DNA from: an uncultured Granulosicoccus sp. | Lineage (GTDB): Bacteria > Pseudomonadota > Gammaproteobacteria > Granulosicoccales > Granulosicoccaceae | DNA length: 38,516 bases | Assembly: GCA_937991945.1 (NCBI GenBank) | Contig: CALKLO010000029.1 | Coordinates: forward strand, 1-38,516 | Direction of reading: 5' to 3' | Part shown: positions 3,117 through 38,180 of the stretch, in pieces | Position numbering within the stretch: position 1 is the stretch's first letter | How the letters are laid out: each line of letters begins with the position of its first letter | Program-made: the position numbers and the translations under genes | Notes under the pieces: model-generated | What the model saw: the letters and a program-made list of their open reading frames with translations, nothing else | Told to the model about the DNA's origin: nothing | Databases searched by the model: none

Positions 3117-3389
3117 CTAGTTTACCGCATCTTTCAATGCTTTACCAGCTTTAAAGCTAGGAACATTTGAAGCTGCAATTTGTAATGGCTCACCTGTACG
3201 AGGATTGCGGCCAGTACGAGCTTCACGTTTACGAACAAGGAACGTACCAAATCCTACGAGAGTAACTTGGTCACCCTGCTTCATGGCTTCGGTAACAGCT
3301 TCTAAAACCGCGTCTACAGCACTCGCAGCATCGGCTTTAGTCATTTCGCCTTTAGCAGCAACCGCTTCAACAAACTCACCTTTATTCAT
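3117..3389 (-). CDS. hupB: DNA-binding protein HU (HU-beta type)
   Basis: Small nucleoid-associated protein that bends and compacts DNA as a dimer. 90 residues, the standard HU length. It starts [21 protein letters not shown], has the [30 protein letters not shown]-type beta-arm region (written here as one family block; DNA-intercalating Pro in GRNP near residue 63), and ends with [15 protein letters not shown]. The position between lon and ppiD is the conserved hupB location. GGGGAT lies upstream of the ATG. Two tRNA genes follow within 7 bp and share its terminator. Confidence 0.96.
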
Positions 3390-3575
3390 GAAAAGCTATC
3401 CCCGTTTATTTAGTTGTGTAAGCACCGAAACGACCGGTGTGTTCTTACGCTTTACCTAAGGCGTGAATCATACGCGAAAAAAAGCGAAAAACACACCAAC
3501 CACAGGGGTTTCAGAGCAATTACACAACTTTTTTTACAATCGAACATATTATGCGCAATACAACGCAGCCTTATT

Positions 3576-3630
3576 GCTTATAAGCAGGAGTAAAAACAAT
3601 TTTACCCCTGCACAATCCCTCTTTATAAGC
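3576..3630 (-). repeat. Bipartite inverted repeat downstream of lon
   Basis: GCTTATAA (3576-3583) pairs with TTATAAGC (3623-3630), and directly inside it GCAGGAGTAAAA (3584-3595) pairs with TTTTACCCCTGC (3600-3611) across a 4-nt loop. The single imperfect pair (3589/3606) is a G-U wobble only in minus-strand RNA. In that RNA the two helices form 20 pairs, with an 11-nt bulge on one side. There is no clear T run afterwards, so it may stabilise or process the lon mRNA 3' end rather than terminate it. Confidence 0.55.
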
Positions 3631-3646
3631 CGTACAAAAAACTGAC

Positions 3647-6169
3647 TTAATGCGTTCTAACCGCAGCCGACTGCGAATCAGGCCGATCATCGTTACCAGA
3701 AACTGTCTCTGGCAACTTTTCTTCATCAGGCCCAGGGCTTCTTGCCAGAGCCACTTCCAAAACCTCGTCAATCCACTGAACTGGACGAATATCGAGCCCA
3801 GATTTAATTTCATCGGGTATTTCGGATAAGTCTTTTTCATTTTCGATAGGAATCAGAACCGTATCGATACCGCCGCGCTGCGCAGCCAACAACTTTTCTT
3901 TCAATCCGCCAATGGGTAAAACTTCCCCTCGAAGCGTAATTTCACCAGTCATTGCGACGTTAGCTCGGACTGGCACTCTAGTAAGACTAGAAACAATGCC
4001 AGTGACCATGCCTACACCTGCACTTGGCCCATCTTTAGGTGTGGCACCTTCAGGTACGTGAAGGTGTATATCCTGCTTTTCATGAAAATTCGCCTCTATG
4101 CCTAAAGACTCTGCCCGGCTCCTAACAACCATCATTGCTGCAGTTATCGATTCTTGCATGACATCGCCCAACTGACCTGTTGAACTCAGTTTACCTTTCC
4201 CTGGCACAACCGCTGCTTCAATCGTTAGCAATTCTCCCCCAACAGAGGTCCAAGCAAGGCCAGTCACTTGACCGATCTTGTCTTCCTTTTCAGCTCGACC
4301 ATGACGATGACGAGGAACACCGAGGTAATCATCGATATTTTCAGCCGTCACCTTAACGAGCTCATCGCTGTGTTTATTACCGTCAGCCTTATTTTTTAAT
4401 TCAAGCTCCATAACCTGCCTTACGACTTTGCGGCATATCTTGGAGACTTCACGTTCAAGGTTACGAACACCCGCTTCACGTGTGTAACTTCTGATGATTT
4501 CCATGATCGCGTCATCACTCACGGAGAGCTCTTCTGCATTCAAGCCATTATCTTGCATCTTGCGAGGAAGTAAATAGCGCTCTGCAATATTGAATTTTTC
4601 CATTTCTGTATACCCAGGTATACGGATAACTTCCATTCGGTCGAGCAAAGGCTCGGGAATATTCATGGTATTGGCAGTCGCAACAAACATTACATCTGAT
4701 AAATCGTATTCAACTTCTAAATAGTGATCGGTAAACGTATGGTTTTGCTCTGGATCCAACACTTCAAGTAACGCGGAAGAAGGGTCGCCTCTGAAATCCG
4801 TAGACATCTTGTCAATTTCATCCAGCAAAATTAAAGGATTGCGCCTCTTCACCTTTGCTAGGTTTTGGACAATTTTTCCAGGCATAGAACCAATGTAAGT
4901 GCGACGATGACCGCGGATTTCTGCCTCGTCGCGAACGCCACCTAGTGCCATGCGACTAAATTTTCTACCTGTAGCGCGGGCAATAGATTTCCCCAACGAC
5001 GTTTTACCAACACCTGGAGGTCCCACTAAACACAGTATCGGACCTTTTGCATGCCCCACTCGCTTCTGCACGGCCAGGTATTCAAGAATGCGTTCTTTAA
5101 CTTTCTCTAACCCGTAGTGATCATTCTCGAGAGTTTCAGCAGCTTCAATTAGGGTCTTTTTCAACTTGGACTGTTTCTTCCAAGGCAGACTGACTAACGT
5201 ATCTATATAGTTGCGCACCACTGTTGCTTCAGCAGACATAGGTGACATCATTTTGAGTTTGTTCAACTCAGCTGTTGCTTTCTTTTTAGCTTCCTTGGAC
5301 AGGCCGCCTTTTGAAATCTTCCGACTTAACTCTTCGTTTTCATTAGGCACGTCGTCCATCTCGCCCAGCTCTTTCTGAATAGCTTTCATTTGCTCATTCA
5401 GATAGTACTCACGCTGACTTTTTTCCATTTGCTGCTTTACGCGACCTCGGATGCGCTTTTCAACTTGCAGCATGTCCAACTCTGATTCCATCAAATTGAG
5501 CAGATGCTCAAGTCTCTTTGCTGGGTCGAATAGTTCGAGAATTTTTTGCTTTTCTTCAACGCGTAATGACATTTGCGCTGCAATCATATCGCCCAATCGA
5601 TCAGCATCTTTGACTCCGGTCAAAGAGCTTAAAATTTCAGGCGGTACCTTCTTGTTCATCTTGACGTACTGATCGAACATATTGGTCACTGAGCGCACAA
5701 GCACATCTAGCTCTTTGCCATCAGTATCGATCTTGTCTTCACCAGAGTCATCGCTGTCTTCCGATGGACTATCGGACGCTTCCTTAACCGTGATATCAGC
5801 AACGGTAAAGTCAGCTACAAAATAGCCATCGTCAGCAACGTTGACAGAATCAATCACTGCCCGCTGAACGCCTTCCACTAGAACCTTAATGGTTCCATCC
5901 GGTAATTTTAGAAGCTGCAATATGGTCGCGATGGTTCCGACACGATGAATATCCTCATCGGACGGATCGTCTACCGCAGCACTGGTTTGAGCGGCCAGCA
6001 TGATGCGTTTATCCGCTGACATTGCAGCATCTAACGCGTCTATCGACTTCTCTCTCCCAACAAATAGTGGAATTACCATATGCGGATAAACCACCACATC
6101 GCGCAAAGGCAATACGGGTAGTTGGGAGGCGCTTAAATTGTTTTCGTTTGTTTGTTCGCTGTCAGTCAC
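3647..6169 (-). CDS. lon: ATP-dependent Lon protease (LonA)
   Basis: Cytosolic AAA+ serine protease that degrades misfolded and regulatory proteins. About 840 residues. The N-terminal substrate domain begins at [20 protein letters not shown] (residues 17 on), followed by coiled coil, Walker A GPPGVGKT at 383-390, Walker B LILLDEID at 446-453, and the proteolytic domain with catalytic Ser in PKDGPSAG (about 716) and Lys in GGLKEK (about 759). The start is a GTG at 6169 with AGGAG at 6181-6185; an upstream TTG would add 22 unrelated residues. An acidic, Ser-rich insert (about residues 131-150) in the N-domain is longer than in E. coli. A sigma-32-like promoter (6224-6251) precedes it, and clpX upstream is sealed off by a terminator. 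Confidence 0.96.
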
Positions 6170-32569: not shown

Positions 32570-33658
32570 ATGACACAAAGGCATTTACTCACGAGCATTT
32601 CAGCACTAGTTTTTTATGCAACCGCCGCATATACCAACATTGTTGTTGCAGATACTCGAACCTATCAAGCAACCACAGATTTTCCCATTCTGGATGCCGG
32701 CGCTGCCCCCTACTACTCAGAAGAACCAAACAGACCCTCATTGGCAATCAATGCAGAGAATGTGGAATACCGAGATGTGTTCGCTCGCGCTGAGGTCGTT
32801 TATGACGGCAACGAGGGAATTCACGAGCTTACGTTAGTCGCGCTAGCCGAATTGGACGGAGAGGCAGATTATCGCGTGTTGGTTAATGATGTCGTCGTTG
32901 GTGAAGCAACAAACCCCACAGTAAGCGTTGACTACACCATTGTTAGGCACACGTTCACAAATATCGCTATTCCTGTCGGAGCAACGCTCGCTGTTGAATC
33001 ATTGGCCAACACCAATGGGACCATTCCTGAGGGCGATGGAACCGCTTATGCCAGGGGACGTTGGAGCACACTGGAAATGCTAGAACAAGATGCTTCATCG
33101 GAAACCCCAACACCCAACACAATCGATTTAAGTGTTGGCATCAGCAGTAACAAGCAAAGCCTAGGCTTCAATGAGGACTTTGAACTAGAACTCGTACTCA
33201 GCAATGACATCAATAGCCTAACGGCCACACAGCCTATTGTCTCAGTAGCTATTCCACTCCAAACATTAACAATCGCCTCAGCTGATCAATGCACACAAAC
33301 CGCACTTGGTTTTGATTGTGCTTTCCCCGAATTACCTGCAGGCAATAGTTATTCAATGACTCTATCTCTTTCCAGCACAGACCAAACTGTCGCCATGGCC
33401 GTGCAGGCAAGATCAACAGCCGATCAAGATGATCGAGAAGAGACGAACAACATTGCAAGCATCAACATTGATATCGCTGATCGCGAATTAGAACCCGAAC
33501 CTGAAACTCCCGATGCACCTCAAACGACTGACATCAGTGCAAGCGTTAGTAATAAGTCGGGCGGTGGTATTTCTTTGTTTTGGTACTTGCTACTGGTTAA
33601 CTTAACGCACCGCCTTTACTCACAACGATCAACTCGTTGTTTCGACAAAATGGCTTAA
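32570..33658 (+). CDS. Secreted beta-rich protein with possible GlyGly-CTERM-like sorting tail, function unknown
   Basis: I do not recognise a named family for the full protein. 362 residues. A signal peptide covers about 1-27 (MTQRHLLTSISALVFYATAAY). The body has two likely beta-sandwich regions: about 28-170, resembling carbohydrate-binding-like modules, and about 178-305, resembling DUF11/CARDB modules (LELVLSNDINSLTATQP, DDREETNNIASINIDI). A Glu/Pro linker (EPEPETPDAP) leads to a C-terminal SGGGISLFWYLLLVN plus basic residues (HRLYSQRSTR). That is the layout of GlyGly-CTERM signals, normally cut by a rhombosortase for surface display. The tail is longer than usual and ends CFDKMA, so the match is imperfect. 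The next gene starts 39 bp downstream. Confidence 0.75.
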   Translation: MTQRHLLTSISALVFYATAAYTNIVVADTRTYQATTDFPILDAGAAPYYSEEPNRPSLAINAENVEYRDVFARAEVVYDGNEGIHELTLVALAELDGEADYRVLVNDVVVGEATNPTVSVDYTIVRHTFTNIAIPVGATLAVESLANTNGTIPEGDGTAYARGRWSTLEMLEQDASSETPTPNTIDLSVGISSNKQSLGFNEDFELELVLSNDINSLTATQPIVSVAIPLQTLTIASADQCTQTALGFDCAFPELPAGNSYSMTLSLSSTDQTVAMAVQARSTADQDDREETNNIASINIDIADRELEPEPETPDAPQTTDISASVSNKSGGGISLFWYLLLVNLTHRLYSQRSTRCFDKMA

Positions 33659-33697
33659 CACAATTCGTCCACAACTGGGATTTTCTCGCACACAAAC

Positions 33698-34141
33698 ATG
33701 ATCAAAATGGCTATAGTCTGTTGTGTGAACAAAGAACGACTTCTACATCTTGTGCTTGTTGCAGCGCTATTCATTAGCCAATTAGCTGCTCACACCCACG
33801 TTATTGGACATTTAGACGTAAATACCCACGTCGAAAGCCATCTTGCCGAACATTCCCATAACCACTCGGCATGTGAACACCACAAGCAGCACTCCTTCAT
33901 TTCAGCAGAGAATGTAACTCCGACCTGCCAAAGCAACACCGCCCATGTCCATGAAAGCGAAAACGACATTGATTGCGCTATTTACCATGCGTATTCGGGA
34001 CAGAGTATTCATCTATCAGGGAATACAACCTGCTTTTCACCGATTGATTTCGACGACAATTTTACATCTGAAAAGTTAACGTCGATAGCAACATTAGAAC
34101 TAGACGCCAAACGCATCCGCGGGCCTCCTTCTCGCACCTAA
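33698..34141 (+). CDS. Small His-rich exported protein, DUF2946-like
   Basis: 147 residues. A hydrophobic segment at about 15-31 looks like an N-terminal signal or anchor. The following region is unusually rich in histidine (16 His in the protein; HTHVIGH, EHSHNHSACEHHKQH) with scattered Cys. The C-terminus has the IRGPP motif seen in small exported proteins beside metal-resistance or uptake genes (DUF2946-type). Metal binding, probably zinc or copper, is inferred from composition only. No clear ribosome binding site precedes the ATG at 33698; later starts (ATG 33707, GTG 33725) are possible. 60 bp before the ZrgA-like gene. Confidence 0.75.
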   Translation: MIKMAIVCCVNKERLLHLVLVAALFISQLAAHTHVIGHLDVNTHVESHLAEHSHNHSACEHHKQHSFISAENVTPTCQSNTAHVHESENDIDCAIYHAYSGQSIHLSGNTTCFSPIDFDDNFTSEKLTSIATLELDAKRIRGPPSRT

Positions 34142-34201
34142 AGACTTGCCCTTATCAAGCGACTTTTCGTCGCTACCCTGATCAAGCTTCTGGAGCACCT
34201 A

Positions 34202-34858
34202 ATGAAAATTTCCCTTATTTTCGCTGTAACGACGGCGAGCATTTCTACTATGGCAGTCGCACAAACACAACGCGATTTAGACAGTCATGAACACGGCAGT
34301 GCCACATTAAATATCGCTATAGATAGCGCAGATGTTTTCATTGAACTGGAAACACCGTGGAACAATCTAGTCGGATTTGAGCACAAACCTGAAACCGAAG
34401 AACAAACGGCGTTACTAGAGGGCGCCATCGAGCAACTAAAAAAACCTGAGCAATTTATCTCTTTTCCAGGAGTCGAATGCGAGATCAAAGACATCTCCAT
34501 TGAAAGCTCACTGAGTCACGAAGAGCACGAAGAGCACGAAGAACACGAAGAACACGAAGAGCACGAAGAGCACGAAGAACACGAAGAACACGAAGAGCAC
34601 GAAGAGCACGAAGAACACGAAGAACACGAAGAACACGAAGAACACGAAGAACACGAAGAACAAACCCACAACAGTGTATTGATTTCATATAGCTACCATT
34701 GTGAAAACGCTAATGAAATCGCCTCTATTGGTGTCGATTTATTCGAAATATGGCCTGGTTTTGAGGAAGTATCCGTGCAGTTAATAGGGCCGAATGGACA
34801 AATGTTAGAACAGTTAAACGCTGGCAAAACCGAGCTTGACCTCAGTCAACTGCAATGA
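34202..34858 (+). CDS. DUF2796 / ZrgA-type periplasmic metal-binding protein with Glu-Glu-His repeats
   Basis: 218 residues with a signal peptide (about 1-20, cleavage after AVA). The family block HEHGSATLNIAIDSADVFIE (29-48) and WNNLVGFEHKPETEEQ (53-68) identify DUF2796, the family of ZrgA, a zinc-uptake-related protein in Vibrio cholerae. Residues 107-151 are 15 perfect EEH units followed by EEQ. The C-terminal part (about 158-218) resumes the normal domain (ISYSYHCENANEI, DLFEIWPGFEEV). ATG 34202 has GGAG upstream. It overlaps the ATPase gene by 4 nt (ATGA). The repeat is most likely a high-capacity metal-binding loop. Confidence 0.88.
   Translation: MKISLIFAVTTASISTMAVAQTQRDLDSHEHGSATLNIAIDSADVFIELETPWNNLVGFEHKPETEEQTALLEGAIEQLKKPEQFISFPGVECEIKDISIESSLSHEEHEEHEEHEEHEEHEEHEEHEEHEEHEEHEEHEEHEEHEEHEEHEEQTHNSVLISYSYHCENANEIASIGVDLFEIWPGFEEVSVQLIGPNGQMLEQLNAGKTELDLSQLQ
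34520..34663 (+). repeat. Tandem 9-bp repeat (Glu-Glu-His) with 36-bp higher-order pattern
   Basis: Sixteen 9-bp units. Calling GAAGAGCAC unit A and GAAGAACAC unit B, the order is AABB AABB AABB BBB, then a last GAAGAACAA. The first 108 bp are therefore three identical 36-bp blocks, showing expansion of a four-unit block, and the following B run shows single-unit expansion. Each unit keeps the frame, so copy number can change without breaking the gene. Confidence 0.97.
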
Positions 34859-35637
34859 TTGATTCCGAATCAAACTCGTCAGAAGATGCCCCTATTGCCG
34901 CTGGCAATAGGGGCAAAGCCATCGTCGACATTTCGAACTTGAGTTTCACTTGGCCGTCGGATAGCACCCCGGTGCTGCAGATAGACAAACTTCAGATTCA
35001 CCAAGGCGAAAGAGTATTCATCAATGGACCTTCTGGCTCAGGTAAAACTACCTTGCTTAGCCTTATTGCTGCAGTCCTATCCGCAACATCCGGCAGCATT
35101 CGTATTGATGACATACCACTCGAAACACTTCATAGAGGTCATCGAGATCAATTTCGCGCTGATAGGATCGGGTTAGTTTTTCAACAGTTTAACTTGCTGC
35201 CGTTTCTATCAGTATCTGAGAATGTTCAACTACCCTGTCAATTTTCGTCTCGAAGAAATACCAGAGCACTTGAGTCTGGAAATTCGTTAAACGAAGAGAC
35301 TGATCGGCTACTACGTGCAATGCATCTTCCCCTACCCGAAATAAAACATAAGCCCGTCACTAGATTAAGCGTAGGTCAACAACAACGGGTGGCAGTAGCA
35401 CGAGCACTCATTGGGCGACCTTCACTCATCATTGCAGACGAACCAACATCCGCTCTCGACACAGATTCAAGAATTGCATTCTTAGATCTATTGTTTTCAG
35501 AAATTGAATCGAGTCAATCTACATTGATATTCGTCAGCCATGACCAAACTCTAGCCACGGCCTTTGATCGTCAAATCGACTTAAGAACAATTAATAGAGC
35601 TAACGTTGAAAATCACATGGCAACGGGCGCATCATGA
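34855..35637 (+). CDS. ABC transporter ATPase (LolD/MacB-type), ZrgB/C-like
   Basis: 260 residues. Walker A GPSGSGKT is at 58-65, Q-loop Gln110 (LVFQQFNLLPFLSV), signature LSVGQQQRVAVARAL at 171-185, Walker B LIIADEP at 191-197 and switch His229 (FVSHD). The signature has Val-Gly-Gln instead of the usual Ser-Gly-Gly, as in many LolD/ZrgB relatives. Catalytic residues are present. Overlaps by 4 nt with the genes on both sides (ATGA each), so it is a tightly coupled transporter unit with the FtsX-type permease. Confidence 0.92.
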   Translation: MIDSESNSSEDAPIAAGNRGKAIVDISNLSFTWPSDSTPVLQIDKLQIHQGERVFINGPSGSGKTTLLSLIAAVLSATSGSIRIDDIPLETLHRGHRDQFRADRIGLVFQQFNLLPFLSVSENVQLPCQFSSRRNTRALESGNSLNEETDRLLRAMHLPLPEIKHKPVTRLSVGQQQRVAVARALIGRPSLIIADEPTSALDTDSRIAFLDLLFSEIESSQSTLIFVSHDQTLATAFDRQIDLRTINRANVENHMATGAS

Positions 35638-36887
35638 TTAAGCTTGCCTACAAAAGCCTAACAAACCGCTGGCAAAGTGCTGTTTTAGCAGCATTGGCTA
35701 TCACCATGAGTGTTGCTTTAATACTCACGGTCGAAAAAGTTCGACGTGAAGCGCGTAACAGCTTCACACAAACCGTATCCGGCACAGACCTTATTATCGG
35801 AGCGCGTAGCGGTAGTGTTCAGCTATTGCTGTACTCTGTATTTCGCATTGGAAATGCCACCAACAACATCAGCATGGAAAGCGTGGATGACATCCGCGAC
35901 AGAGCTGCAGTTGACTGGTTAATACCCCTCTCCCTGGGTGATTCACATGCTGGCTTCCGCGTATTAGGCACCAACGAAGATTACTTCTCACACTATCGTT
36001 TTGGTAGTGACCAACAAATACAACTCTCATCGGGTTACCTTTTCAACGATTTATTCGACGCAGTGATTGGCAGTCAGGTCGCTAAAAAGCTGGGCTACAA
36101 ACTGGGTGATGAAATCGTAGCCGCACATGGCACTGGAAGAGTGGCACTAGTCAAACACGAGCGACAACCATTTGTTGTAAGTGGGATTCTCAAACCCACA
36201 GGAACACCTGTGGACAGCACTATTCACGTCAGCTTACAAGGCATCGAAGCGATGCACATAGACTGGCGCAACGGCGCTAATGTAAAAGGCGCCGGTACTG
36301 ACGCAGAAACACTTAGAAGCATGGAGCTTAAACCGACGGCTGTCACCGCTGTACTAGTCGGATTGAAGTCAAGGGCACAAGTTTTTCGTGAACAACGTGC
36401 CATTAATACTTACCGGGAAGAGCCTTTATTAGCCATCCTTCCAGGGGTTGCATTGCAAGAACTCTGGAATTTAATGAGTGTGGCTGAAATGGCATTGATG
36501 ATCATATCGATATGTGTCGTCGTAGCAGGCCTAGTAAACCTAATGTCTGTATTACTCGCAGGTTTAAACGAGCGCCGACGCGAAATGGCCATACTACGTT
36601 CTACCGGTGCAAGACCTGCTCATGTGTTCCAACTGCTATGTATTGAGTCCACGTTACTGACATTCATCGGAATCGTAGCTGGCTTATTGTTTCATTATTT
36701 ATTGATAAGCCTTGGATCCGTATTTTTACAAGAACGTTTCGGTTTGTCTCTTAATTTATCTCTGCCGAACCTTAGGGATATAAGCATACTTTTAGCCATC
36801 GCCCTTGCTGGGCTTATTGCGGGCACATTGCCGGCTCTACAGGCGTATCGGACATCGCTCTCCGATGGCCTTTCTCAACGGCATTAA
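35634..36887 (+). CDS. MacB/LolCE/FtsX-type ABC permease
   Basis: 417 residues with MacB-like (type VII) layout: TM1 at about 16-32, a large periplasmic domain (33-285), then TM2 about 286-310, TM3 about 340-360 and TM4 about 383-402. The coupling motif LNERRREMAILRSTGARPAHVF at 311-332 is typical of FtsX-domain permeases. Proteins of this class usually drive mechanical work or extraction of periplasmic and lipoprotein cargo rather than simple inward transport, so the zinc-uptake reading of its neighbours needs care. 28 bp before the DUF3299 gene. Confidence 0.9.
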   Translation: MIKLAYKSLTNRWQSAVLAALAITMSVALILTVEKVRREARNSFTQTVSGTDLIIGARSGSVQLLLYSVFRIGNATNNISMESVDDIRDRAAVDWLIPLSLGDSHAGFRVLGTNEDYFSHYRFGSDQQIQLSSGYLFNDLFDAVIGSQVAKKLGYKLGDEIVAAHGTGRVALVKHERQPFVVSGILKPTGTPVDSTIHVSLQGIEAMHIDWRNGANVKGAGTDAETLRSMELKPTAVTAVLVGLKSRAQVFREQRAINTYREEPLLAILPGVALQELWNLMSVAEMALMIISICVVVAGLVNLMSVLLAGLNERRREMAILRSTGARPAHVFQLLCIESTLLTFIGIVAGLLFHYLLISLGSVFLQERFGLSLNLSLPNLRDISILLAIALAGLIAGTLPALQAYRTSLSDGLSQRH

Positions 36888-36915
36888 TGACCCAATTAAA
36901 TATTAGGAGCTTCTT

Positions 36916-37503
36916 ATGAATATTCGAAAAATGCTTGTTTTATCTGCGCTTCTTGGCTCGGTAGTTTTTGGAGCATACGCGCAACCTAGCTGGTGGCCAT
37001 TTGGCAACACGGGTAACCAAGAGAATAATGAGGACATCGTAGAACTTGGGTGGGACGACTTGATACCCGATGACTTTATACAGCCTGAGAACCCCTTCGC
37101 AACAATGTCACAAGAGGCTATCGACAAATTGCTCGATGGTAGCGAAGCGTCAAAAGCGGAGCTTGCTAGGCTTGAAGAAGCGTTTTACTTCGCTCCGGTT
37201 GTTGACGACTTAGATGGTAAGCGGGTGAAAATCCCAGCTTACATAACGCCATTGGATTTCGACAATCAAACAAGACTTAGTGAATTTCTATTGGTTCCCT
37301 ACCTGGGTGCTTGCATGCATTCGCCGCCGCCCCCTGCCAATCAAATTGTGCATGCCAACACTGGCGATGCCATTGAGATGGAGAATCTTTACGACCCTAT
37401 CTGGGCTATAGGAACACTACGTACAGAGGCTGTCGAAAGCAATCTTGCAACGTCAGGTTATCGAATTGAAGTAGAAAAATTAGTGCCCTACACAACAGAG
37501 TAG
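36916..37503 (+). CDS. DUF3299 periplasmic protein
   Basis: 195 residues with a signal peptide (about 1-22, cleavage after YAQ). Family signatures: LGWDDLIPDDF (44-54), KIPAYITPLDFDN (105-117), and LLVPYLGACMHSPPPPANQI (125-144). DUF3299 genes are often found next to ZrgA-like and ABC genes; the molecular role is not known to me. The Cys/His of GACMHSPPPP could bind metal, which is inference. AGGAG lies 6 nt before the ATG. Last gene of the plus-strand set. Confidence 0.88.
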   Translation: MNIRKMLVLSALLGSVVFGAYAQPSWWPFGNTGNQENNEDIVELGWDDLIPDDFIQPENPFATMSQEAIDKLLDGSEASKAELARLEEAFYFAPVVDDLDGKRVKIPAYITPLDFDNQTRLSEFLLVPYLGACMHSPPPPANQIVHANTGDAIEMENLYDPIWAIGTLRTEAVESNLATSGYRIEVEKLVPYTTE

Positions 37504-37552
37504 TCGAGCGCTAATTTCGAATAATGCTCTGACGATGCGCCACTGTTTGACG

Positions 37553-37590
37553 TGTTGTGATAATTCAAGACAACTTGGATTATCACAACA
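37553..37590. terminator. 17-bp hairpin between convergent genes
   Basis: TGTTGTGATAAT (37553-37564) and ATTATCACAACA (37579-37590) form a perfect 12-bp stem. Inside it CAAG (37566-37569), loop ACAA, CTTG (37574-37577) adds 4 bp, and the linking T-G pair (37565/37578) pairs as G-U only in plus-strand RNA. It lies 50 bp after the DUF3299 stop and 5 bp before the end of the minus-strand gene at 37596. It is a likely two-way terminator, stronger for the plus strand, although the T tail is only three long. Confidence 0.7.
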
Positions 37591-37595
37591 TTTCA

Positions 37596-38180
37596 CTAGT
37601 CGCGCGGATACAACTCACGCTCGCATAAATTTATATTTTCAAATGTGTACTCTAGTGATAAATAACCGACTTCTAGTGAATAGGCATTTAACACCAACCC
37701 CACACTGCGTAGATTTTCGGGAAGCACCGCACCGCTGCTGCTATCCCAAATTGTGGCTACATAACGATCTCCATCACTGACTGCCTGTAACCAATTGTCC
37801 AAGTCAGCGTCAGATCTACCAGAAAAGCGAAAGTCAAAATCTTTCGCTACCCCAAACATTTTAGCCAGCCGCCTTGTTTCTTTAGCGAACAACGCTTGAA
37901 CCTGCGTACCCTTTGAGTCGCTCGGAATTTCAAGCCCAATGGCTTTAATCCAACACAGCCCCTGCACATCAGAGAATTGTCCGAGATAAGTTTCATAGGC
38001 CTCATTCGGCTCTGCCACACTCAGCAAACGCAACATGCCCGCAGGTGAGCCTTCATCTTTAACAGTGGCAATGTCGTTAACTGGAAGCCCCATAGACAAG
38101 CCAAACGAGTCAGCTAACGTTGCCCTTGCACACAAACAACCTGCAAGGAAAACAGCGACACTTATACATTGATAGTTCAT
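37596..38180 (-). CDS. Exported protein of unknown function
   Basis: 194 residues; not recognised. The N-terminus MNYQCISVAVFLAGCLCARA is hydrophobic and contains LAGC at 12-15, a lipobox-like motif, but there is no basic residue before it and an alternative signal peptidase I site follows ATLA (20-23). The mature part is soluble and mixed, with blocks EPNEAYETYLGQFSDVQGLC and FRFSGRSDADLDNW. It may be a small secreted or lipid-anchored periplasmic protein. Convergent with the plus-strand metal genes and 90 bp upstream of the tyrA end on the same strand. Confidence 0.7.
   Translation of the reverse strand: MNYQCISVAVFLAGCLCARATLADSFGLSMGLPVNDIATVKDEGSPAGMLRLLSVAEPNEAYETYLGQFSDVQGLCWIKAIGLEIPSDSKGTQVQALFAKETRRLAKMFGVAKDFDFRFSGRSDADLDNWLQAVSDGDRYVATIWDSSSGAVLPENLRSVGLVLNAYSLEVGYLSLEYTFENINLCERELYPRD

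Follow-up and report, generated by a model that had tools for sequence, protein, structure and literature searches.

A zrg-type operon on contig 29

The window analysed here is the whole of contig 29 (CALKLO010000029.1; 38,516 nucleotides), one of the 158 contigs that make up the 3.8 Mb genome of an uncultured Granulosicoccus sp. (assembly GCA_937991945.1). At 32570-37503 it carries six open reading frames (ORFs) on the plus strand, separated by intergenic gaps of 39, 60, -4, -4 and 28 bp, exactly as set down in an earlier note that had been made from the letters alone and had treated the six genes as one metal-handling cluster. Genes 2 to 6 form a five-gene zrg-type operon, in the order zrgD-zrgA-ATPase-permease-DUF3299, and gene 1 is not linked to it. 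Of principal interest is gene 2, the zrgD-type ORF at the head of the operon, which we examine as a candidate metal-sensing switch for the genes that follow. The features of the locus are these:

32570..33658, + strand: gene 1, predicted exported protein with CBM6/35/36-like and CARDB/integrin-like immunoglobulin (Ig) domains and a GlyGly-CTERM-like tail; outside the zrg operon
33712..33717, + strand: TATAGT, -10-like box of the zrg operon (de novo motif), within the ORF called as gene 2 in the earlier note
33725..34141, + strand: gene 2, zrgD-type upstream ORF, with its start corrected to GTG 33725
33974..33988, + strand: CAIYH codons of gene 2 (CxxxH, with invariant Cys and His), putative metal site
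34118..34129, + strand: RGPP codons of gene 2, arrest-type motif
34142..34201, + strand: leader between zrgD and zrgA, with an apical hairpin (34158-34174) and the zrgA ribosome-binding site (34191-34195)
34202..34858, + strand: gene 3, zrgA (DUF2796, ZrgA family), with an EEH array at 34517-34662
34855..35637, + strand: ATP-binding cassette (ABC) ATPase, zrgC-type
35634..36887, + strand: permease of FtsX/LolE/MacB type, zrgB-type
36916..37503, + strand: gene 6, DUF3299 protein, PA4066-type, in the zrgE position

Gene 3 matches the ZrgA/DUF2796 family (PF10986) with 160.6 bits against a curated cut-off of 27.4 (E 4.1e-47). It scores 173.1 bits against the ZrgA equivalog model NF047873, under the cut-off of 185, and is therefore a ZrgA-family protein, not the NCBIfam equivalog. 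By sequence it matches two solved structures, PA4063 (E 4.2e-19) and a second zinc-binding protein (8ezw). Adjacent to it in the window are the genes for the ABC ATPase, the FtsX-type permease and the DUF3299 protein, the last of which matches structure 4hsp, PA4066 (E 2.8e-31); we take zrgE to be a DUF3299 gene of this kind. The recognition of a zrg-type locus in the earlier note is borne out by these matches, which cover PF10986, the ATPase, the FtsX/MacB-type permease and DUF3299. The EEH codons of zrgA (34517-34662) form a near-exact 9-bp array of 16.2 copies with 96% matches, which also has a 36-bp higher-order period.

Gene 2 stands in the place of ZrgD

In V. parahaemolyticus the operon is given in the order zrgD (DUF2607)-zrgA-zrgC-zrgB-zrgE (PMC9817125). 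Gene 2 occupies this known ZrgD position and is not an addition to zrg; the earlier note had taken it for something new at the front of the locus, a view that fails because the gene holds the ZrgD place and stands before zrgA in most relatives. Counted from GTG 33725 the protein has 138 amino acids, among them the 16 His of the earlier count and 6 Cys, and its N-terminus, judged by eye, resembles an export signal.

For comparison we used 40 zrg stretches of relatives from 38 genomes, of which L039, L067 and L070 (cut by a contig end) and L071 (no zrgA) were dropped, leaving 36. A small ORF ending in RxPP lies at most 250 bp before zrgA in 31 of these 36 Granulosicoccaceae stretches with an upstream side, and none was found before zrgA in L043, L045, L048, L049 and L062. 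The tests on 29 loci reported below cover 28 relatives and the window, L044, L047 and L063, where RxPP is present in a cut or divergent form, being excluded; the alignment of paired RNA segments (A5, 26 rows) also excludes L050, L059 and L064, and the promoter motif search (22 loci) excludes the near-duplicates L046, L056 and L058.

Across the family the layout of the ZrgD peptide is fixed. In an alignment of 25 ZrgD proteins (A4) eight residues are invariant: a Gln, a His, the Cys and His of CxxxH, and the terminal Ile, Arg, Pro and Pro. The Cys stands exactly 48 positions from the Arg of R[A/G]PP in 27 of the 29 loci, with 43 residues between His and Arg, and three residues follow R[A/G]PP before the stop, again in 27 of 29. 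This layout is fixed despite total lengths of 118 to 167 residues, and the His-rich part varies freely. The window protein conforms, its RGPP Arg lying 48 positions after the Cys and its stop three residues after the motif, and among the 189 stop-bounded window frames of at least 60 codons only gene 2 has R[AGS]PP near its stop. Gene 2 looks regulatory rather than like a metal buffer.

Outside the family, 12 ZrgD proteins from Vibrionales, Marinomonas and Zooshikella share the Cys and the terminal RxPP, with a Cys-to-Arg step of 45 positions in 11 and 46 in one, and 8 of the 12 match PF10795. Our family profile aligns with Vibrio-type DUF2607 over the Cys-to-RxPP part (hhalign probability 80.5, E 1.3e-5). 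The step is 47 in three Hyphomicrobium and one metagenome-assembled genome. A search for DUF2607 in 369 genomes of the class gave two weak matches, none above the cut-off, in a draw that seemingly held few or no Vibrionaceae and is thus uninformative on the spread of ZrgD. A match of gene 2 to NF038397 was rejected as chance-level (14.1 against 40 bits). In the Hyphomicrobium loci L143, L150 and L192 we observed RxPP-ended upstream ORFs in which Cys pairs (C..C) precede the motif by 47 and 50 positions, together with long structured leaders, possibly serving a different metal or output.

Pairing of the zrgD stop region with the zrgA ribosome-binding site

In relatives of the window, the zrgD stop region and the zrgA ribosome-binding site pair with one another and covary. 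The last codons and stop of the family's zrgD (typically CTCCTGA) are complementary to the ribosome-binding, or Shine-Dalgarno (SD), sequence of zrgA (TCAGGAG), around a small hairpin; L037 and L066 are examples in which the two pair strongly. Mean pairing is 6.41 bp for the native partners, against 5.52 bp when partners are permuted (best of 5000: 6.17) and 3.93 bp with shuffled tails, and the same measure at three other operon junctions gives 3.45, 3.95 and 3.70 bp. In the A5 alignment 81.1% of cells are paired, against 35-53% when it is slid by 1 to 3 columns. Its covariation score was matched by 3 of 500 shuffles, in a tool with which related rows can beat shuffles without structure, and 4 of 500 equalled its count of doubly changed cells.

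Folding predictions for the 29 loci indicate that this pairing shields the SD, which is predicted unpaired at 0.12 in the free RNA, at 0.37 with the zrgD end masked up to the stop and at 0.30 with shuffled tails (Wilcoxon 1.6e-7 for masking and 8.8e-6 against shuffled tails). Sixteen loci outside the Granulosicoccaceae average 5.13 bp, compared with 4.08 bp once partners are permuted (p 0.0006); some of them pair perfectly, such as Marinomonas with 10 bp.

A candidate promoter before zrgD, and Zur

A de novo search with a 12-nt model found a motif, CTATACT, immediately ahead of the zrgD start codon in 18 of the 22 loci, with a log-likelihood gain of 86.2 against 35.6-39.5 in shuffles, for which half as many restarts were used. 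The corresponding box in the window, TATAGT at 33712-33717, lies 7 nt before GTG 33725, a position from which a -10 element would start an mRNA all but devoid of a leader (leaderless-type). Since this box falls inside the ORF of the earlier note, which began at ATG 33698, gene 2 most likely begins at GTG 33725; and since it lies downstream of gene 1, the zrg operon seems to have its own promoter. It is this promoter-like box that would make gene 2 the first gene of the operon; from the gene-1 stop to the corrected start there are only 66 bp.

The genome has a Fur-family gene beside znuA, with a Zur-like box before znuA that agrees with the gammaproteobacterial Zur consensus at 17 of 22 positions. 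Among 30 znuA-type loci, our own included, the Zur box scores at least 15 in 13 and less in 17, the box being kept in 12 of 29 relatives. A first Zur matrix held three zrg boxes and the box of one znuA-zrg pair, and was rebuilt from 12 znuA sites alone (random levels: 99%, 11.1; 95%, 8.1). None of the 29 ZrgD-bearing loci has a box over the 99% level, and L053 (8.8) is alone above the 95% level; among the other eight loci scored, L045, L048 and L049, which have no upstream ORF, pass the 99% level. In the window the matrix scan of the 900 bp ahead of zrgA gave no Zur box, as the earlier note had judged by eye, and we therefore name this a zrg-type cluster, not a Zur-regulated one. Vibrionales loci seem to carry both ZrgD and a Zur box, the latter mostly ~375-400 bp upstream of zrgA; in many of the Pseudomonas loci compared a Zur-like box precedes zrgA by ~50 bp.

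Other arrangements were seen upstream of zrgA. In L043, from a sister genus, the place of zrgD immediately ahead of zrgA is taken by a ZnuA-like gene (3379-4497) that has a His-rich loop and, at its start, a Zur-like box, and in L188, L190 and L209 (Rhodobacteraceae, Rhabdochromatium) a Fur/Zur-like ORF, by translations judged by eye, stands directly before zrgA.

Gene 1 lies outside the operon

Gene 1 has a match in 35 of 48 family genomes (at least 225 residues being spanned in 32) and ZrgA in 40 of 48. No tblastn match to gene 1 (E <= 1e-3) was found in the 40 relatives' zrg stretches, 37 of them longer than 7 kb, nor was there any match in 80 named zrg loci, of which at least seven are the same contigs as fetched stretches. 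Among 25 genomes holding both, gene 1 and zrg stand side by side only in the window. A distance of 1.01 Mb separates them in G020, a genome of one contig; many of the other genomes compared are drafts, so that a position on separate contigs proves little alone. Gene 1 shares a contig with aroA in 5 of 29 genomes compared, at distances of 1.6 to 15 kb. The earlier note had asked whether its first two genes would be absent from other copies of the cluster: gene 1 is, gene 2 is not, and the six genes do not form a unit.

In the nearest relative searched (G022, aroA 86% identical) the order is cmk-aroA-gene 1-RhtA-like-x7-tyrA, with zrg on another contig, and DNA similarity to G022 continues on both flanks of the window's zrg block. 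As part of the explanation favoured below, and with the same standing, we hold it probable that the operon reached the aroA-tyrA region by relocation or transfer, coming to lie between gene 1 and the tyrA side; the permease tree, with its many unresolved forks and long branches, cannot separate the two. The zrg block (33658-37596) occupies the spot where the nearest relative has its RhtA-like exporter gene, and a search for that gene in the window's own genome, made without a positive control, gave no match. A long near-perfect hairpin (37553-37589; -26 kcal/mol, z -6.2), possibly a two-way terminator, lies where gene 6 and x7 converge. The x7 gene (37596-38180, minus strand, 194 amino acids) is conserved beside tyrA in the nearest relative with 59% identity, and its product has no Pfam or NCBIfam match.

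The AlphaFold model of the gene-1 protein has a pLDDT of 86 and a pTM of 0.52. Residues 28-174 are modelled as a beta-sandwich like those of CBM6/35/36 (CBM36 7ay3, Z 14.4, 2.5 A over 122 residues) and residues 179-305 as an Ig domain akin to integrin legs (Z 14.3) or CARDB (Z 13.8), and the model ends in a loose linker and a C-terminal helix. Foldseek's top rows for the whole chain are beta-galactosidases with a low whole-chain TM (0.24), and because of this value and the pTM the domains were judged separately. The idea that gene 1 encodes a metal protein is unsupported, for the protein has 4 His and a CBM-like model, and its one tie to metal is adjacency to zrg. The CBM-like match is a match of fold only, and the CARDB entry matched is a di-metal complex, so that gene 1 is not proven metal-free. 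The GlyGly-CTERM tail proposed in the earlier note fares unevenly: model TIGR03501 has no match in the window protein and gives 14.6 bits in its nearest homologue, below the cut-off of 15.5, whereas a GG-hydrophobic-basic tail, counted by eye, is present in 19 of 26 aligned homologues and the genome has a rhombosortase (146.8 against a cut-off of 84 bits, on C118). A GlyGly-CTERM-like tail is thus plausible, and the simplest reading is a surface-displayed sugar- or partner-binding protein.

Comparison with known systems

The window operon shares ZrgA, the ATPase, the FtsX-type permease and the DUF3299 protein with Vibrio ZrgABCDE, and Vibrio relatives likewise have a small exported protein with the Cys and terminal RxPP directly before zrgA. 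It differs in that the window and its ZrgD-bearing relatives have no Zur box over threshold, in that Granulosicoccaceae ZrgD is longer and His-rich with a Cys-Arg step of 48 rather than 45 positions, and in that the window ZrgA misses the NCBIfam equivalog cut-off. With PA4063-PA4066 of Pseudomonas aeruginosa it has in common ZrgA (PA4063), the DUF3299-type PA4066 and a split MacB-like ABC pair; PA4063 is the first gene of that operon and there is thus no ZrgD.

Closer to ZrgD in their layout are two copper-sensing peptides. CruR of B. pertussis has CXXC at 90-93, RAPP at 139-142 with 45 residues between, and three residues to its end, and it is proposed that a pause at RAPP is lifted when the nascent chain carries copper (PMC9426467); by the counting used for ZrgD this spacing is 46 or 49 positions. 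The arrest of CruR was later shown in vitro, RAPP and RGPP being strong arrest motifs that are strongly avoided in proteomes (PMC12992588). Like CruR, a DUF2946 upstream ORF, ZrgD stands first in a metal-transport operon and combines an apparent export signal with a putative metal-ligand pair, set at a constant distance from the closing R[A/G]PP, after which three residues remain. Unlike CruR, which responds to copper through CXXC and has a TonB transporter downstream, ZrgD has CxxxH and a His-rich part, and where CruR acts by Rho termination over a 162-bp gap, the ZrgD family has an SD-shielding stem over 46-105 bp. In CutF of R. capsulatus a CxxxC lies ~45 residues from a Pro-rich tail and a stem hides the ribosome-binding site of the next gene (PMC9973294). 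ZrgD resembles it as a putative nascent exported sensor with a ligand motif ~45 residues before a Pro motif and a predicted SD-shielding stem-loop, strong in the ZrgD family and weak in the window copy; CutF differs in sensing copper via CxxxC and in turning on an oxidase at high metal. Among titles and abstract openings in the literature we found none linking ZrgD or zrg to arrest peptides, and the word 'zinc' does not occur in the main texts of PMC9426467, PMC9973294, PMC12992588 and PMC10987492, whose supplementary gene lists may already include ZrgD-like members.

A translational switch for zinc uptake?

The explanation that we consider probable is that a zrg operon has come to lie behind an unrelated gene 1, and that its ZrgD is a metal-sensing translational switch of the CruR/CutF kind. 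ZrgD would be expressed from a promoter of its own, immediately ahead of the start codon, and the nascent chain would present the His-rich part and CxxxH at a fixed step from the terminal R[A/G]PP. At low metal the ribosome would pause on R[A/G]PP, cover the zrgD stop region and free the zrgA SD, allowing zrgACBE to be translated. Metal bound by the nascent chain, most likely zinc, would relieve the pause and let the SD close, so that the uptake genes would be on at low metal. The usual footprint of a ribosome paused with the third residue of the motif in its P-site would extend to the stop codon. It is in this position that toeprints place the paused ribosome (PMC10987492, PMC12992588). We infer promoter activity, arrest, metal and direction, as well as the same working in the window copy: the metal from the zrg context and the His/Cys ligands only, the direction from the analogy with CruR and the logic of an uptake system.

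A number of observations weigh against this explanation, most of all in the window itself. The window zrgD ends TCTCGCACCTAA, and its longest helix to the SD is 3 bp, the pairing being short and interrupted; the SD is predicted unpaired at 0.43 in the free RNA and 0.42 with the zrgD end masked, so that masking is without effect, and the leader fold has a z of -1.73, with 8 of 200 shuffles as good. The window is thus the poorest example of the RNA lock: its peptide and promoter have kept their features, and it is the RNA part that is in doubt. Elsewhere in the family L055, L057 and L058 deviate in the zrgD stop region, and L059 and L064 (2 of the 29 loci) are without CxxxH. In A5, beyond the caveat on related rows given above, neither pairs changed on both sides (265/500) nor further pair types (123/500) rise above shuffles. 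Several Vibrio loci have no SD pairing and would have to rely on a different output, for instance Rho termination. L047 has a RAPP-ended ORF together with a Zur score of 10.5, near the 99% level, and the exclusivity of Zur box and upstream ORF is therefore not perfect. Gene 2 itself matches neither PF10795 nor PF11162 at E <= 1, nor any Pfam family; PF11162 (DUF2946) is touched by 4 of 25 family members (best 2.3e-4) and has no match in the window's genome, so that ZrgD may be said to work like CruR and CutF, not to be a DUF2946 protein.

It could be, then, that in the window strain the relocated operon no longer has its translational switch and is expressed constitutively or, in part, by read-through from gene 1. 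The stop region and SD of the window are no longer complementary and the 66 bp behind the gene-1 stop are short; the -10-like box, the CxxxH spacing and RGPP have nevertheless all been retained, and the predicted leader fold still joins both G of the SD to the CC that precedes the zrgD stop. Loss of the switch in this strain is a serious possibility, which we are inclined to doubt. We think it unlikely that gene 2 is a non-regulatory periplasmic His-rich zinc buffer or chaperone, with the RGPP tail and leader structure incidental or a matter of plain translational coupling. Its 16 His, signal-like N-terminus and place beside ZrgA, a known zinc binder (PMC9820375), would suit such a protein, but across the family it is the His-rich part that varies while CxxxH-R[A/G]PP-3-stop is fixed, few arrest motifs are as strong as RGPP or as much avoided (PMC12992588), and the pairing with the SD shows covariation and is lacking at three other operon junctions. 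Very improbable is the chain envisaged in the earlier note, with capture at the surface by gene 1, buffering in the periplasm and energised ABC uptake. A 39-bp gap on the same strand joins genes 1 and 2, and a GlyGly-CTERM-like tail with a rhombosortase would fit surface display; yet in every other copy examined gene 1 is unlinked to zrg, adjoining aroA instead, it has a carbohydrate-binding-like model and only 4 His, the promoter-like box of zrg lies downstream of it, and gene 2 looks regulatory.

The direction of transport, and with it the handling of metal by the ABC pair, is a separate matter that is read differently in work on V. cholerae and on P. aeruginosa. The permease has FtsX and MacB_PCD domain matches, its relatives by sequence in the PDB are MacB and LolF, and its model (pLDDT 71) gives Z 21.3 against a permease chain of LolCDE and Z 18.2 against MacB, the rmsd being ~14 A for 350 aligned residues, which fits the LolE/MacB/FtsX class. 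All of this would suit an exporter of the MacB type, carrying a metallophore or its metal complex, or an FtsX-like force-transmitting machine, with gene 2 setting the level of export, as would the argument that PA4064-65 of P. aeruginosa is a MacB-type exporter of pyochelin (PMC11481552). Against it stand the V. cholerae data, which are interpreted as zinc import through the zinc binder ZrgA (PMC9820375), and we regard such an exporter or machine as having nearly an even chance.

What the switch would mean

Transition-metal sensing by a nascent peptide has so far been shown for copper, in CruR and CutF. We suggest more tentatively, as a proposal with somewhat less than an even chance, that ZrgD, which descriptions of the Vibrio zinc operon leave without a function, is their zinc counterpart, that in Granulosicoccaceae a leaderless arrest peptide has replaced Zur, and that zrg copies carry either an R[A/G]PP ORF with an SD-locking stem or, where this ORF is missing, a Zur box. 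If true, a zinc-uptake version would explain ZrgD and show control of a zinc transporter without Zur; it would also be directly testable, with one peptide, one pause site, one RNA lock and covarying partners in more than 20 species. It would carry a caution as well: small His-rich proteins that head metal operons may be switches, not metal stores.

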